A DNA stretch of 64,000 nt, from contig NZ_JABBWV010000001.1 of the NCBI RefSeq assembly GCF_012999535.1, positions 558,001 to 622,000 on the forward strand, read 5' to 3'. Numbering within the stretch: the first letter of the stretch is position 1; every line of letters begins with the position of its first letter. The position numbers and the translations under genes are program-made. Source of the stretch: Microbispora sp. H11081 (lineage in GTDB: Bacteria; Actinomycetota; Actinomycetes; Streptosporangiales; Streptosporangiaceae). Positions 7,416 through 15,235 of the stretch are shown here, one piece after another. Under the pieces are notes generated by a model. That model worked only from the letters and a program-made list of their open reading frames with translations. It searched no databases and had not been told where the DNA came from.

Positions 7416-8357
7416 TTAATGAAAACGAGACTCGCCAACGCGGGCGGCGACGGCCTGCTGGTACAGGCGGCCGGCCCGGTAGGACGAGCGCACCAGCGGG
7501 CCGGACATGACACCGGAGAAGCCGATCTCCTCGGCCTCCCGCTGGAGCTCCACGAACTCCTCGGGCTTCACCCAGCGGTCCACGGGGTGGTGACGCTGGC
7601 TGGGACGCAGATACTGGGTGATCGTCACCAGGTCGCAGCCGGCCTCGTGGAGGTCGCGCAGCGCCTGGGTGATCTCCTCGCGCTCCTCGCCCATGCCGAG
7701 GATGAGGTTCGACTTGGTGACGAGCCCCGCCGCGCGGGCCATGGAGATGACCGCGAGCGAGCGCTCGTAGCGGAACGCTGGGCGGATCCGCTTGAAGATC
7801 CGGGGCACGGTCTCGATGTTGTGCGCGAAGACCTCGGGCCTGCTGGAGAAGACATCCTCGAGCTGGCCGCGGTCGCCGTTGAAGTCCGGCACCAGCAGTT
7901 CGACGCCGCAGCCGGGCACCATCTCGTGGATCTGCCGGGCGGTCTCCGCGTACAGCCAGGAGCCGCCGTCGGGCAGGTCGTCACGGGCGACGCCGGTCAC
8001 CGTGGCGTAGCGCAGGCCCATCTGGCGGACGGACTCGGCGACGCGGCGCGGCTCGTCCCTGTCGTACTCGGCGGGCTTGCCCGTGTCGATCTGGCAGAAG
8101 TCGCAGCGCCGCGTGCACTGGTCGCCGCCGATGAGGAAGGTCGCCTCGCGGTCCTCCCAGCATTCGGAGATGTTGGGACAGCCCGCCTCCTGGCACACCG
8201 TGTGCAGCCCCGCGCCCTTCACCAACGACTTGATCTCGTTGAAGTTGGGGCCGTTGCGCAGCCGCGTCTTGATCCACGGCGGCTTCTTCTCGATGGGGGT
8301 CTGGCTGTTGCGCACCTCCAGGCGGAGGAGCTTTCGGCCTTCAGGAGCGACGGTCAT
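7416..8357 (-). CDS. lipA: Lipoyl synthase
   Basis: LipA is a radical-SAM enzyme that inserts two sulfurs into octanoyl chains on lipoyl domains. The 313-residue protein has both clusters: the auxiliary-cluster motif [12 protein letters not shown] (about 55-66) and the radical-SAM motif CTRRCDFC (about 82-89). The closing RSSYRAG motif near the C-terminus supplies the serine ligand of the auxiliary cluster. The ATG start is supported by family length. It is divergent from a TetR gene and followed by DUF4191, a standard actinobacterial arrangement. All catalytic residues are present, unlike in the lipB-like gene nearby. Confidence 0.97.
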
Positions 8358-8746: not shown

Positions 8747-9400
8747 ATGGCCGAAGGACTGCGGGAGCGCAAGAAGCGGCAGACCCGGCAGCGCATCACC
8801 GAGGTGGCGCTCGGGCTGTTCGTGGAGCGCGGATTCGACAACGTCACGATGGCCGAGGTCGCGCAGGCCGCCGAGGTGTCGGTGAACACCGTCTACAACT
8901 ACTTCCAGGCCAAAGAGGACCTCGTGCTCCCGCCCGAGGAGGCCTCACCCCGGAGGCTGGCCGACATCGTGCGGGAGCGTCCGCCGGGCCAGTCGGCGGC
9001 CGTCGCGGTGCTGGAGCGCCTGCGCGGGGAGATACACGGTCGCGAACGCGCGGTCGGGCTGAGCGCGGGATTCGGACGTGTGCTGGAGATGATGCGCGCC
9101 GCCCCCACGCTGACCGCCCGGCTGGAGGACCTCGGCCGCCGGATGACCGACGCCCTGGCGGTCACGCTGGCCGAGGAGACCGGCGCGGACGCCGGCGATC
9201 CGCTGCCGCGCGTGGTCGCCTGGCACATCGGCTGCCTCCACTCGCTGGTGTACGCCGAGATCGGGCGGCGTACGACGGCGGGGGAGAGCCCGGACACCAT
9301 CGCGGCCGCCGTGCTGGAGTTGCTCGACGTCGCCGAGAGCCTCCTGGGCGAGCAGGTCCGCGCCTATGCCGTACGAGAGGGACGACCGTGTTCAGAGTGA
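8747..9400 (+). CDS. TetR-family transcriptional regulator
   Basis: The 217-residue regulator has an N-terminal HTH domain (about 10-56) with RQRITEVALGLFVERGFDNVTMAEVAQAAEVSVNTVYNYF split across the three helices. A ligand-binding domain follows with a TetR_C-like region. No ribosome site precedes the ATG; a -10-like hexamer six bases upstream suggests leaderless expression. The gene overlaps the following DUF6204-like gene by 13 bp, so both are probably cotranscribed and perhaps coregulated. The ligand is unknown. Confidence 0.9.
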   Translation: MAEGLRERKKRQTRQRITEVALGLFVERGFDNVTMAEVAQAAEVSVNTVYNYFQAKEDLVLPPEEASPRRLADIVRERPPGQSAAVAVLERLRGEIHGRERAVGLSAGFGRVLEMMRAAPTLTARLEDLGRRMTDALAVTLAEETGADAGDPLPRVVAWHIGCLHSLVYAEIGRRTTAGESPDTIAAAVLELLDVAESLLGEQVRAYAVREGRPCSE

Positions 9401-9684
9401 CGATCAGAGGGAAGTTCAAGGGCCTCGACGACGTCGGCCGGGCCGCCGTGACGGCGGTGGGCGGCGCGGCCTACACCGAAGGCGGCTCGTTCACCCACGA
9501 CGCGAGCGTGTCCGCCTTCACCTTCCGCTGCCAGGTGCCCGCGGGGCCGGACGACGGCGAGGACGAGGCCGCGCTGGGAGCGATGGCCGCGCTGGACGCG
9601 CACGGGCACCCGTACGAGATTCTGCACGTGGCGGTGACCGACATGCGCCAGATCAAGATCCGCCGGAAGGGCCGCGGCGCGTAG
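9388..9684 (+). CDS. DUF6204-like small protein
   Basis: The 98-residue protein starts at GTG 9388, inside the end of the TetR gene, with GAGAGG seven bases upstream. It begins with a strand-rich FRVTIRGKFKGLDDVGRAAV and has GGSFTHDASVSAFTFRCQV and a final QIKIRRKGRG. This pattern matches small actinobacterial proteins of the DUF6204 type, which often sit beside TetR regulators. The function is unknown. The overlap with tetR suggests it is part of that regulator's own transcription unit. Confidence 0.7.
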   Translation: MFRVTIRGKFKGLDDVGRAAVTAVGGAAYTEGGSFTHDASVSAFTFRCQVPAGPDDGEDEAALGAMAALDAHGHPYEILHVAVTDMRQIKIRRKGRGA

Positions 9685-9687
9685 CCG

Positions 9688-10368
9688 TCAGGTGATGTCT
9701 TCCTCGTACAGGTCGTACGGCTCCTGGCCGAGAGCCTCGGCCAGGAGCTTGCCGGCGAACGGGATGACCTCGTCGACCGTGATCCGCCGGCCGGTCTCGG
9801 CCGACAGCGATGTGACGCCCGCGTCGTCGTCCCCGGTGATGCGGGTGTACCAGCTCAGGTCGTTGACGCAGTTGAGCGCGAACCCGTGCATGGTGACCCC
9901 GCCGGAGACCCGGATGCCGATCATGCCGAGCATGCGGTCAGGCAGCCCAAGCGCGGGATCGCCGGGCACCCACACCCCGCCGCGGCCCTCCACCCTGCGC
10001 GCGGTCAGCCCGAAGTCGGCGCAGACCTGGATGAGGACCTCCTCCAGCACCCGGACGTAGGAGACCACGTCGTCGATGCGGATGATCGGATAGCAGACGA
10101 GCTGCCCGGGACCATGCCAGGTGATCTTCCCGCCCCGGTCCACGTCGATGACGGGCGTGCCGTCGGCCGGCCGCTCGTGCGGCAGCGTCCGCTTGCCCGC
10201 GGTGTAGACGGGGGCGTGCTCCAGCACGAGACACAGGTCGGAGATCTCGCCGGCCACCCGCCGGGCGTGCAGCCGCCGCTGCAGGGTCCAGGCCTGCTCG
10301 TACGGCACGTCGACACCCAGGCGGACGATGGCCACGCCCTTCCCGTTCCCATCGTCCTTCACGTTCAC
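9688..10368 (-). CDS. lipB: LipB-like octanoyltransferase homologue lacking the Cys/Lys dyad
   Basis: This 226-residue protein is clearly LipB by sequence and position, with VLEHAPVYTAGKRTLP, RGGKITWHGPGQLVCYP, EGRGGVWV and TMHGFALNC. LipB transfers octanoate from ACP to lipoyl domains through a Cys/Lys dyad (Cys176 and Lys142 in M. tuberculosis). Here the Lys position reads Met (RMLGMIGIRV, where RKVAAIG-type sequence is usual). The usual xVPCGIADAGVTSL segment is shortened to ITGDDDAGVTSL, removing the Pro-Cys. The protein may be inactive, altered in substrate, or replaced elsewhere in the genome. The GTG overlaps the upstream stop (GTGA), so translation is coupled; an alternative GTG lies six bases downstream. 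Confidence 0.85.
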   Translation of the reverse strand: MNVKDDGNGKGVAIVRLGVDVPYEQAWTLQRRLHARRVAGEISDLCLVLEHAPVYTAGKRTLPHERPADGTPVIDVDRGGKITWHGPGQLVCYPIIRIDDVVSYVRVLEEVLIQVCADFGLTARRVEGRGGVWVPGDPALGLPDRMLGMIGIRVSGGVTMHGFALNCVNDLSWYTRITGDDDAGVTSLSAETGRRITVDEVIPFAGKLLAEALGQEPYDLYEEDIT

Positions 10369-11105
10369 AGCGTAGAGGTGAGCAGCCGGGGCTCGATACG
10401 CAGCTCCTTGACCGCGGCGCCGTCCCGCTCGATGCGGTAGGCGTAGCCCGCCGGGTCGATGGTCACGGCCTGGATGAACTCGGTGCCCACGTAGTGCAGC
10501 GCCACGCCCTCGTCGGCGGCGTACCCCTCGGGCAGCTCGCCCGAGGCGACCGACTCGTGCAGCAGCGCCCGCCGCTGGGGGTCGGAGTTGTAGTGGACGC
10601 CGCAGGAGTAAGGAAGCAGACCGAGGCCCTCTGCCCAGGGCCGCAGCCGCGGCCCGAACGAGTCGGTGTTGCCGCCCACGTGCCAGCACAGCGCGCCCGC
10701 GCTCTGCCCGGAAAGCACGATCCCCGACCGCCACGCCTCGGAGAACGCCTCGTCCAGGCCGTGCAGCCGCCACAGCGCGGCGAGGTTGGCGACGCTGCCG
10801 CCGCTCACGTAGATCGCGTCCTGCTCCAGGATCCACTCGCGGGGGTCCTCGACGTTCGGCATCGGGAAGACCGTGAGGTGGCTCACCTCCACGTCCCAGC
10901 GGGCGAACGCGCCGTACATCTTGAGCAGCCACTCGGCGTCGTCGCCCGTGGCGGTGGCGAGCAGGCCGAGCTTGGGCCGGTCCTGCCCGGTCAGGTCGAG
11001 GACGTAACGCAGCAGCGCGGTCGGCTCGATGAAGCCGTACCGCTCGGTCTGCCGGAACGACCCGCCCCCGATGGCGACGATGTGCGACTGCCCGATGCGG
11101 CTCAT
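10365..11105 (-). CDS. Peptidase E-like (S51 family) hydrolase
   Basis: This 246-residue protein resembles S51 peptidases (dipeptidase E/cyanophycinase superfamily). It has an AIGGGSF start, the strand KLGLLATATGDD, a VSGGSVANL segment, the nucleophile elbow SGQSAGALCWH (Ser within GxSAG) and later LGLLPYSCGVHYN with the His. These enzymes cleave Asp-X dipeptides or related isoaspartyl bonds. ATG 11103-11105 has GGGAG eight bases upstream; a GTG three codons earlier is possible. It is translationally coupled to the lipB-like gene, an unusual pairing. Confidence 0.85.
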   Translation of the reverse strand: MSRIGQSHIVAIGGGSFRQTERYGFIEPTALLRYVLDLTGQDRPKLGLLATATGDDAEWLLKMYGAFARWDVEVSHLTVFPMPNVEDPREWILEQDAIYVSGGSVANLAALWRLHGLDEAFSEAWRSGIVLSGQSAGALCWHVGGNTDSFGPRLRPWAEGLGLLPYSCGVHYNSDPQRRALLHESVASGELPEGYAADEGVALHYVGTEFIQAVTIDPAGYAYRIERDGAAVKELRIEPRLLTSTL

Positions 11106-11139
11106 GCCCACCACTCCCGTTCCCGGATCGAATGACTCC

Positions 11140-12039
11140 TTAGAGTACGGCGGACAGCGCCTCGCCGATGGTGGGATGGGCGAACCTGTGGCCCGCGTCG
11201 AGCAGCCGGCGGGGGAGCACCCGCTGCCCGGCGAGCAGGGCCTCCTCCGCGAACTCCCCGAGCGCCAGGCGCAGCGCGAAGCGCGGGGCGGGGACCGGCA
11301 TCGTCGGGCGCCGCAGCGCCTTCGCCAGCGCGGCCGTGTATTCGGCGTTGGTCACCGGCTCGGGAGCCGTCAGGTTCACCGGCCCGTCGAGGTCGTGCGC
11401 CAGCAGGAAGCGGGCCGCGTCCACCCAGTCGGGCAGCGAGATCCACGAGACGTACTGCCTGCCGTCGCCGAGCACCGCGCCCGCGCCCATCTTGAAGAGC
11501 GGCAGCATCCGGGCGAGCGCGCCGCCCCGGCCGCTGAGCACGACGCCTGACCGCATCAGCGACACCCGCAGGCCCGCCTCCGCGGCGGGCGCCGTCGCGG
11601 CCTCCCATTCGCGCACGAGACCGGCCAGGAAGCCCGTGCCCGACGGCGCGGACTCGTCCACGGCCCGGTCGCCGGTGTCGCCGTAGAAGCCGATCGCGGA
11701 GGAGGACAGCAGCACCCGCGGTCCCCGCTCGGCGCGGGCCAGCGCCTCCGCGAGGGTGCGGGTGCCGCTGACGCGGCTGTCCACCAGCTCCCGCTTGTAC
11801 GCCTCCGACCACCGGCGGTCGCCGATCCCGGCGCCGGCCAGGTGGACGACGGCGTCCGCGCCCTCCAGGGCCCCGGGGTCGAGCACCCCGTTCGCCGGGT
11901 CCCAGAAGCGCTCGTCAGGCCCGGAGGGAGGGCGTCGCACCAGCCGGCGCACCTCGTGCCCGTCGGCCCGCAGCGCGTCGGCCAGGGCCGTTCCGAGCAG
12001 TCCCGAGGAGCCCGTCACCACTGTCGTCATCGTGTTCAC
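11140..12039 (-). CDS. TIGR01777-family NAD(P)-dependent epimerase
   Basis: The 299-residue protein is an extended SDR of the TIGR01777 family. The N-terminal VTGSSGLLGTALADAL binds nucleotide. VVHLAGAGIGDRRW and SSSAIGFYGDTGDRAVDE follow; the usual catalytic YxxxK is not conserved in this family. A DUF1731 C-terminal region closes the protein, with LLDAGHRFAHPTIGEAL. The natural substrate is unknown. Its position between lipB and sucB is conserved in actinobacteria. Either GTG 12037-12039 or ATG 12028-12030 may be the start; neither has a clear ribosome site. Confidence 0.9.
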   Translation of the reverse strand: MNTMTTVVTGSSGLLGTALADALRADGHEVRRLVRRPPSGPDERFWDPANGVLDPGALEGADAVVHLAGAGIGDRRWSEAYKRELVDSRVSGTRTLAEALARAERGPRVLLSSSAIGFYGDTGDRAVDESAPSGTGFLAGLVREWEAATAPAAEAGLRVSLMRSGVVLSGRGGALARMLPLFKMGAGAVLGDGRQYVSWISLPDWVDAARFLLAHDLDGPVNLTAPEPVTNAEYTAALAKALRRPTMPVPAPRFALRLALGEFAEEALLAGQRVLPRRLLDAGHRFAHPTIGEALSAVL

Positions 12040-12207: not shown

Positions 12208-13698
12208 CTACGCCAGGCCGAGCTGGGCCTCGAAGCGGCCCTCCTCCAGACGGTGCTTGATCGTCGTGAGGAAGCGGGCGGCGTCGGCCCCGTCGACCAG
12301 GCGGTGGTCGTAGCTGAGCGCGAGGTACACCATCGAGCGGACCGCGATGACCTCGCCCTCCGGGGTGTCCACGACGACCGGGCGCTTGACGACCGCGCCG
12401 GTGCCCAGCATGCCGACCTGCGGCTGGTTGAGGATCGGCGTGTCGAACAGCGCGCCCCGGCTGCCGGTGTTGGTCAGCGTGAACGTGCCGCCGGTGATCT
12501 CGTCCGGGCTCACCTTGTTGGTGCGGGTGCGCTCGGCCAGGTCGGCGATCTTGCGGGCGAGCCCGGCGATGTTGAGGTCGCCCGCGTTCTTGATCACCGG
12601 GACGAGCAGGCCGCGCTCGGTGTCGGTCGCGAAGCCGAGGTGCTCGACGTCGAAGTAGGTGACCTCGTTGGTCTCGCTGTTGATCGTCGCGTTCAGCTTC
12701 GGGTGCTGCTTGAGCGCCTCCACCGCGGCGATCGCGAAGAACGGCATGAACGACAGCTTGACGCCCTCGCGCCGCAGGAACTCGCCCTTGGCCCGGTCGC
12801 GCAGGCGCGCGATGCGGGTGACGTCGACCTCGACGACCGTGGTGAGCTGGGCCGAGACCTGCAGCGACTCCACCATGCGCTTGGCGATGGTCTGCCGCAG
12901 GCGCGACATCTTCTCCGTACGGCCGCGCAGCGTGGTGTCCACCCGCACCTCCGACGCGGCGGGCGCCGCGGCGGCGGGGGCGGCGGGCGCCTGGGCGGGA
13001 GCGGGCGCGGCCTGGGGAGCGGCCGCCGGAGCGGCGGCAGCGGCGGCCTGCTCGCGCTGGACGCGGGCGGCCTCGATCACGTCCTGCTTGCGGATCCGGC
13101 CGCCGACGCCGGTGCCGGTCAGCGCGTCGAGGTCGACGCCGTGCTCCGCCGCGAGCTTGCGGACCAGCGGCGTGACGTACGGGCTCTCACCGGACGACGG
13201 CAGCGGGGTCGGCTCGCTCGGCTGCGCGGCCGGGGCGGGCGCCTGCGGCTGCGGAGCGGGGGCCTGCTGGGCCGGGGCGGGCGCCGGCGGCGGCGTCACC
13301 ACGGCGGGCGCGGGCTGCGGGATCGACGAGATCGGCGCCGCGGGCTGGGCGGGCGCGGGCTCGGGCGCCGCCGCCTGCGCGGGGGCCGGGGCGGGCTCGG
13401 GCTCGGGCTGCGGGGCGGGAGCCGGAGCGGCGGGCTCCGGGGCGGCCGGAGCGGCGCCGGCCTCGGAGTCGATCAGGGCGAGCTCCGCGCCGACCTCGAC
13501 CGTCTCGTCCTCGGCCACAATGATCTTGGTCAGGTAGCCCGCGGACGGCGAAGGGATCTCGGTGTCGACCTTGTCGGTCGACACCTCGAGGAGCGGCTCG
13601 TCGGCCTCGACGCGGTCGCCTTCGTTCTTCAGCCAGCGGGTGACGGTGCCCTCGGTAACGCTCTCGCCGAGCTGGGGCATGGTTACGGAGACCGGCAT
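12208..13698 (-). CDS. sucB: 2-oxoglutarate dehydrogenase E2, dihydrolipoyl acyltransferase
   Basis: The 496-residue E2 protein transfers succinyl or acyl groups from lipoate to CoA. It has one N-terminal lipoyl domain with the modified lysine in [10 protein letters not shown] (about 38-47), a long Ala-Pro-Gln linker (about 85-190), a peripheral subunit-binding domain ([19 protein letters not shown]), and a catalytic domain ending in the active-site motif [14 protein letters not shown]. Many actinobacterial homologues have two or three lipoyl domains, so one is at the low end. It is followed 34 bp away by lpdA on the upstream side, making an E2-E3 operon. The paralogue choice (2-oxoglutarate versus pyruvate) follows synteny with DlaT/SucB. 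Confidence 0.94.
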
Positions 13699-13732: not shown

Positions 13733-15112
13733 TCAGTTGTGGACGTGCAGCGGCTTGCCGGCCAGGGCCAGCATCGCCTCGCCGAGGGCCTCGGACTGGG
13801 TCGGGTGCGGGTGGATCAGCTGGGCGACGTCGGTGGCCGTGGCCTCCCAGTTGAAGATCAGCTGGGCCTCGGCGATCAGTTCGCCCACCCGGCTGCCCAC
13901 CATGTGGACGCCGAGCACCCGGCCGTCGCGCTCGGCGACGACCTTGACCTCGCCCTGGGTCTGCAGGATCTTGCTCCTGCCGTTGCCCGCGAGGTTGTAG
14001 CTCAGCTCGACGACGTCGTGACCGCGCTCGCGGGCGACCGACGTGGCGACGCCCACCGAAGCGACCTCGGGCTCCGAGTAGGTGATGCGCGGCACCCCGT
14101 CGTAGTCGATCGGCACCGGGTTGAGCCCCGCGATGTGCTCGGCGACCAGGATGCCCTCGGCGAAGCCGACGTGGGCGAGCTGCAGCGTGGGGATGAGGTC
14201 GCCCACGGCGTAGACGCCGGGGACGCTCGTCTGGCAGAACTCGTTGACGAGGACGTAGCCGCGCTCCATGGAGACGCCGTTCTCCTCGAAGCCGAGGCCG
14301 GCCGAGACCGGCCCGCGTCCGACGGCGACGAGCATGATCTCGGCGTCGAGGGTCTTGCCGTTCTCCAGCGAGACGACGACCCCGGTGTCGGTGGTCTTGA
14401 CGCTCTCGAACCGGGTGCCCAGCTCGTACTTGATCCCGCGGCGGCGGAAGGCGCGCTCCAGCAGCTTGGAGCTGGACTCGTCCTCAAGCGGCAGCAGGTG
14501 CGGCAGCGCCTCGACGATCGTCACCTCGGCGCCGAACGAGCGCCACACGCTGGCGAACTCGACGCCGATGACGCCGCCGCCCAGGATGACGACAGAGGAC
14601 GGGATCCGGTCGAGGACCAGCGCGTGGTCGCTGCTGATCACCTTCTCGCCGTCGATGTCCAGGCCGGGCAGCGACTTCGGCACCGAGCCGGTCGCCAGCA
14701 CGACGTTGCGGCCCTCGTACACCTGGTCGCCGACCACGACGCGGTTGGGGCCGGCCAGGCGGCCCTCACCCTCGACCACAGTGATCTTCTTGCTCTTGAT
14801 CAGCCCTGCCAGGCCCTTGTAGAGGCCGCCGATCACCTTGTCCTTGTACGAGTGGACGGCGGGGACGTCGATGCCCTCCAGACGGGTCCGGACGCCGAAC
14901 GACTCGCTCTCACGGGCCTGGTCCGCCAGTTCGGCCGCGTGCAGCAGCGCCTTGGTGGGAATGCAGCCGCGGTGCAGACAGGTGCCCCCGACCTTGTCCT
15001 TCTCGATGAGGACGACGTTCATGCCGAGTTCGGCCGCCCGCAGGGCACAGGCGTACCCACCGCTACCGCCACCTAGGACGACGATGTCATAGGGGCCGCT
15101 GCCATCAGCCAC
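13733..15112 (-). CDS. lpdA: Dihydrolipoyl dehydrogenase (E3)
   Basis: This 459-residue flavoprotein reoxidises dihydrolipoamide with NAD+. It has the FAD motif [18 protein letters not shown], the redox disulfide [15 protein letters not shown], the NAD motif [16 protein letters not shown], the FAD-binding AVGDL segment and the C-terminal active-site HPHPTQSE. The start is GTG 15110-15112 with AGGAG seven bases upstream; longer upstream reading frame is unlikely to be translated. It sits directly upstream of sucB on the same strand, so it feeds the same 2-oxo-acid dehydrogenase complexes. Confidence 0.97.
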
Positions 15113-15235
15113 TGGAATGCTCCTTGGTCGTTTTCGCACCGCCGGAAGGATCCGGCAGCATCCTTTCACTTGTCCCGGAAGATCGTGGCCCCGGGCCCGG
15201 GCCCGGTGGGCGCGGCGACACGGGGCCGTCCTCCG

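Follow-up and report, generated by a model that had tools for sequence, protein, structure and literature searches.

Closest described systems

In the LipB octanoyltransferase of M. tuberculosis, the catalytic dyad is formed by Cys176 and Lys142, as given in PMC9307952. According to the same source, the E. coli LipB variants K135A and K135A/C169A have strongly reduced activity, and the double mutant is catalytically inactive but still binds C8-ACP with a KD of 36.4 uM. Here we describe a LipB homolog from Microbispora sp. H11081 that lacks both residues of this dyad. The following features were identified in the window, that is, the whole analyzed stretch of 64,000 nucleotides (contig NZ_JABBWV010000001.1, positions 558,001 to 622,000):

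9688..10368, minus strand: putative LipB-family pseudoenzyme gene, 226 aa; the GTG start at 10368 overlaps the TGA of the S51 gene; stop codon at 9688-9690
9931..9933, minus strand: Met146, aligned to Lys142 of M. tuberculosis LipB (1w66)
9805..9840, minus strand: ITGDDDAGVTSL, a shortened loop; active LipB has PCG (Cys176) there
10099..10137, minus strand: RGGKITWHGPGQL, kept acyl/phosphopantetheine pocket (pocket residue list from PMC9307952)
9871..9888, minus strand: HGFALN, kept pocket block including His157 of M. tuberculosis LipB

A LipB homolog without the catalytic dyad

An alternative start of lipB, GTG at 10362, lies two codons further in. In the alignment to 1w66, where the chain numbering equals the published numbering plus two with the same offset for Lys and Cys, Lys142 is matched by Met146, the codon (9931-9933) that the preliminary description had singled out. 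The PCG loop of the Microbispora lipA-type LipB is two residues short, the Pro and Cys falling in the gap. The deletion of PCG, claimed earlier, holds for the Microbispora gene but not as a general rule, as A, G, L, N or W occupies the Cys position in relatives whose loop has its full length.

The other LipB signature blocks had been described as intact, and the profile scores agree with this: 120.6 bits for Pfam PF21948 and 280.7 bits for NCBIfam NF010925 (cut-off 155). Compared with LipB octanoyltransferases (EC 2.3.1.181), the protein retains the LipB-type fold, the profile and the pocket motifs RGG, HGPGQ and HGFALN (residue list in PMC9307952), and lacks the catalytic Lys, replaced by Met146, and the catalytic Cys, replaced by a two-residue gap. 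The lysine of lipoate ligases (Lys133 of E. coli LplA), equivalent to Lys142 of LipB according to PMC9307952, is absent as well. By profile and fold, the protein belongs to the LipB family, although as a catalytic LipB it lacks two defining residues. The predicted structure (217 residues, 40 sequences, mean pLDDT 82.3, pTM 0.85) has 1w66 as its best solved match (TM 0.76, rmsd 6.7), with lower confidence (block means 56-71) at model residues 41-80, which cover most of the pocket loop.

Sequencing error is excluded as the cause, because both Lys and Cys are missing from the lipA-type LipB in 15/15 Microbispora genomes, none of which restores either residue.

The gene belongs to a row of genes whose other members in the window are:

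7416..8357, minus strand: lipA (lipoyl synthase), the sole match in the genome above the curated cut-off
10365..11114, minus strand: peptidase family S51 gene, directly upstream of lipB and overlapping it
11140..12039, minus strand: epimerase/DUF1731 gene (Pfam), a member of the same gene row
12208..13698, minus strand: 2-oxoacid dehydrogenase E2 carrying a single lipoyl domain and likely to be lipoylated
13733..15169, minus strand: pyridine nucleotide-disulphide oxidoreductase (Pfam), probably lpd

Along the minus strand the genes run lpd-like, E2, DUF1731, S51 peptidase, lipB, and then lipA and DUF4191; a second lipA match in the genome is weak and falls under the curated cut-off. The preliminary description had placed lipA next to lipB. 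The two genes are indeed in the same row but not immediately adjacent, since the plus strand carries a TetR and a DUF6204 gene between them (8747-9684). The gene coupling that it mentioned exists as an overlap, the partner being the upstream S51 peptidase gene.

A second LipB in the same genome

The genome (7.38 Mb, 50 contigs) contains two PF21948 matches, both of them LipB copies. The second LipB (L001), unlinked on contig 6, carries RKIVSIG and IPCGM, and thus both Lys and Cys, and also has the pocket. All 15 Microbispora genomes have two LipB matches, and the second copy has Lys and Cys in 15/15. The genome thus contains a paralog with all the catalytic residues, which may be catalytically competent. 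NF010925 ranks the dyad-less copy (280.7) far above the copy with Lys and Cys (181.3), and both are named LipB.

A search via PF21948 for lplA or another lipoate ligase as the substitute found none in the genome, where only the two LipB copies are matched. Loss of lipoylation by the host is unlikely: the genome has one lipA above the cut-off, a single GcvH, and an E2 whose lipoyl domain is among 12 biotin/lipoyl-domain matches.

Two outcomes had been envisaged at the outset, namely that the host lipoylates by another enzyme or that this protein does something else, and both gained support. The second LipB, the only other PF21948 match in the genome, has Lys and Cys, and we infer from these residues that it carries octanoyl transfer; the altered copy is under purifying selection with its ligand pocket kept, which would suit another role.

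The neighborhoods of the second copies, compared as BLAST clusters of stop-to-stop frames, are variable; recurring genes are an amino-acid permease (17/37 loci), a choline-kinase-like gene (15/37) and an FAD oxidoreductase (12/37), and relatives of S51, E2, lpd and lipA were found at 0/37 second-copy loci.

Distribution of the dyad in the family

We sampled 77 genomes from 57 genera, with no more than two from any genus, chosen from 200 drawn, retrieved 120 of their 123 LipB matches and read the two positions on the HMM alignment. Together with Microbispora this gave 91 of the 92 genomes with matches, the one left out (G040) having three fragmentary matches. The lipA-type copy keeps both Lys and Cys in 39/39 genomes without a second copy; of 51 genomes with both LipB types, both residues remain in 6, Lys alone is missing in 20 and both are missing in 25 (15 of these 25 being Microbispora), all genome counts being uncorrected for relatedness. 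Alignment with related genera thus finds the dyad loss recurring among kin, with Lys lost in 45/51 genomes with both types, a loss across the clade as is expected of a pseudoenzyme. Fisher's test, which ignores relatedness, yields 3.5e-19 for the association of Lys loss with the second copy and 0.02 for Cys loss occurring only after Lys loss.

Second copies were recognized by the motif K[IV][IVA]S[IV]GM, which includes the Lys itself, and a Lys-lost second copy would escape this count; none was seen off the S51/E2/lipA row when the HMM alignment was read by eye. One genome, 89% complete (G031), has only a LipB of the second type (L221), on a short contig. Extra PF21948 places beyond the LipB profile, which are probably LplA-like, were found in 8/91 genomes, seven of them without a second LipB; all eight retain Lys and Cys. 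Lys and Cys were also present in all 20 loci of the class picked for comparison, as read by eye in the printed stretches.

A set of named loci comprised the best 80 of 104 relatives in a scan; as these were drawn by similarity to the altered copy, the set is biased towards it, and here 6 loci keep both residues, 52 have lost Lys only and 22 have lost both. Loci that have lost Lys and kept Cys include those of Nonomuraea, Planomonospora, Planobispora, Herbidospora and three of four Acrocarpospora. Cys is absent from, among others, the loci of Microbispora, Planotetraspora, Sphaerimonospora and Microtetraspora.

Sequence and frequency of the dyad losses

Loss of Cys with Lys kept was not found among 222 LipB entries (including second copies, some genomes being entered twice). 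The Lys position of Lys-lost copies is occupied by Q, R, M, A, L or G, and the Cys position of altered copies by a gap, A, G, L, W, E or N. We built trees of LipA and of LipA plus LipB (128 sequences, FastTree), which rest on one or two genes and midpoint rooting. On these trees, 11 clades of Lys-lost sequences result when regain of Lys is disallowed, whereas plain parsimony needs 6 changes; Cys was lost in 3 and 2 clades. Acrocarpospora catenulata (L078), which the trees do not include, may represent one further loss.

All 39 second copies included in the tree fall into a single clade with support 1.0, together with one LipB from another family of the class (L233). This LipB shares 61% identity with the second copy and is the sole match of that query in its genome; its position among the second copies suggests lateral transfer. 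At one position, Arg is present in at least 97% of intact LipBs, and Cys is found there in 30/63 copies that have lost Lys and kept Cys.

Selection and conservation

We calculated dN/dS by the Nei-Gojobori method, which is uncertain at such G+C. Within Microbispora the ratio is 0.256 for the altered copy (105 pairs), 0.184 for the second copy (103 pairs) and 0.112 for LipA (45 pairs); for the intact lipA-type LipB across the family it is 0.401, at larger distances. Of 43 positions fixed (at least 97%) in 101 intact sequences, 37 are kept at 90% or more in sequences lacking both catalytic residues. Besides Lys and Cys themselves, the six exceptions comprise the Gly that follows Cys, Thr81, a Leu and an Arg. 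Pocket sites of the sequences lacking both residues have a mean entropy of 0.092 vs 0.502 for the rest (P 0.0016), with the pocket residue Thr81 changed to Ala in 7/31. All 119 Lys-lost entries (some genomes being entered twice) are full length, with a domain of 217-232 aa. Taken together, the altered lipB does not appear to be decaying, and the rest of the protein is under purifying selection, as would be expected of a conserved pseudoenzyme.

We nevertheless considered slow decay, in which the old lipB would have been redundant since the arrival of the second LipB and would be heading for loss, kept open only by its place in the gene row. The loss of the dyad is stepwise and repeated, as decay would predict, and the LipB/LipA dN ratio across all pairs is raised in Lys-lost loci (2.76 with Cys kept and 2.60 with both residues lost, vs 2.19 for intact loci). 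At matched LipA divergence, where the closest bin has only two intact pairs, the copies lacking both residues do not evolve faster than intact ones (2.64 vs 2.74, 2.24 vs 2.41 and 1.92 vs 2.47), while those with Cys kept are faster in one bin (3.94 vs 2.74), equal in another (2.45 vs 2.41) and slower in the third (1.98 vs 2.47); the higher ratio in the one bin fits some relaxation. Decay is opposed by the full length of all Lys-lost entries, by the dN/dS of about 0.25 within the genus, by the nearly fixed pocket and by the retention of lipB in 7/80 named loci, all of them Lys-lost, in which no lipA was found within 4 kb. These seven loci also weaken the idea that lipB is retained merely as part of a lipA operon. 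On balance we regard slow decay as unlikely.

Alternatively, the altered protein could still transfer octanoyl, either via another nucleophile or by non-covalent juxtaposition of donor and lipoyl domain. The kept fold and pocket and the place beside E2 and, mostly, lipA would suit this explanation, and so would the Cys still there in copies that have lost only Lys. Against it, the residues at the Lys and Cys positions seem too varied for one substituted mechanism, and the E. coli K135A and K135A/C169A variants are strongly reduced in activity according to PMC9307952, which makes continued transfer distinctly improbable.

The gene row and the S51 peptidase

The S51 gene is the same-strand upstream neighbor of the lipA-type lipB, with at most 214 bases between them, in 36/36 two-copy genomes outside Microbispora, including 6 that keep the dyad, and is also upstream in 16/39 one-copy genomes. 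It is present in 74/74 Lys-lost named loci and was found in 0/37 second-copy loci. Because the order occurs in 16/39 intact-only genomes and in the 6 dyad-keeping two-copy genomes, the link between S51 and lipB is, as read from gene order, older than the dyad loss and unbroken afterwards in our sample. The persistence of the link gives some ground for a joint new function, in which the altered LipB would recognize a lipoyl domain or acyl-ACP and the upstream-encoded S51 enzyme would act on the target, but the order predates the loss and we consider such a function very doubtful. Likewise very doubtful is the specific version in which the altered LipB, as the recognition half of a two-protein unit with S51, would use its kept pocket to grip octanoyl- or lipoyl-bearing domains for the S51 enzyme to act on, so that lipoylation of the neighboring E2 is monitored or removed.

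Other features of the row vary. A TetR gene similar to that between lipB and lipA was found in only 6/80 named loci, all six lacking both catalytic residues. In Herbidospora and Acrocarpospora catenulata loci (L075, L078, L079, L083, L088, L092 and L093), no lipA was found in the surroundings of lipB, where S51, DUF1731 and E2 remain; a DNA pattern for the lipA motif gave no match in the Acrocarpospora catenulata locus (L078).

A probable conserved LipB pseudoenzyme

Three points are established for Microbispora: the lipA-type LipB has no dyad, the genome encodes another LipB that has one, and the altered protein has been conserved. We assign a probability of roughly 0.62 to the explanation of the altered protein as a LipB pseudoenzyme that is conserved, was released by the second LipB and probably still binds octanoyl-phosphopantetheine or lipoyl domains without transfer. 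By the sequence criteria applied here it qualifies as a pseudoenzyme; binding with no transfer is inferred from the retention of the pocket and by analogy with E. coli K135A/C169A, as described in PMC9307952.

The following course of events may be proposed. An ancestor in the family would have gained a second LipB of another lineage beside the long-resident actinobacterial LipB. Judging by residues and distribution, the second LipB, keeping its dyad, would have assumed the transfer of octanoyl groups from octanoyl-ACP onto lipoyl domains. Comparison of the family members shows that several lines of the old copy lost the catalytic Lys and that some of them subsequently lost Cys, and the old copy does not seem to have decayed, its fold, acyl/phosphopantetheine pocket and gene position being kept. 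The most likely role of the altered LipB would be to hold octanoyl-phosphopantetheine donors and/or lipoyl domains with no transfer; it might serve as a sensor or buffer, or work together with the second LipB, with LipA or with the E2 complex.

The family looks like a natural replicate experiment in the conversion of a core metabolic enzyme into a pseudoenzyme: after the arrival of a second copy, Lys is lost first, in several lines, and Cys later, while the binding site is retained. It also provides a graded set of proteins, with the dyad intact, with Lys lost or with both residues lost, on hand to ask which roles LipB has besides catalysis. Automated annotation gives the name octanoyltransferase to proteins that are very probably inactive, as illustrated by the two Microbispora sequences scanned with NCBIfam. 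Among the matches listed in the open-access literature, we found no prior report of the dyad-less LipB pattern.

Comparison with known systems

The Microbispora protein resembles the LipB proteins of M. tuberculosis (1w66) and T. thermophilus (2qhs) in profile, predicted fold and pocket motifs, and passes the NF010925 equivalog cut-off; it differs from them in having neither the catalytic Lys nor the catalytic Cys and in the presence of a dyad-bearing LipB elsewhere in its genome. With LplA lipoate ligases and biotin protein ligases it shares the overall fold, as seen in lower-ranked structure matches, but the sequence belongs to the LipB branch, and the Lys on which LplA relies according to PMC9307952 is lost. 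The second LipB (L001) is of the same family and differs in the presence of Lys and Cys and in its separate lineage, which groups with L233. The E. coli LipB variant K135A/C169A, as described in PMC9307952, is changed at the same two positions; whereas that is a laboratory mutant, the Microbispora change is natural and kept across genera, and its binding of ligands is predicted by analogy.
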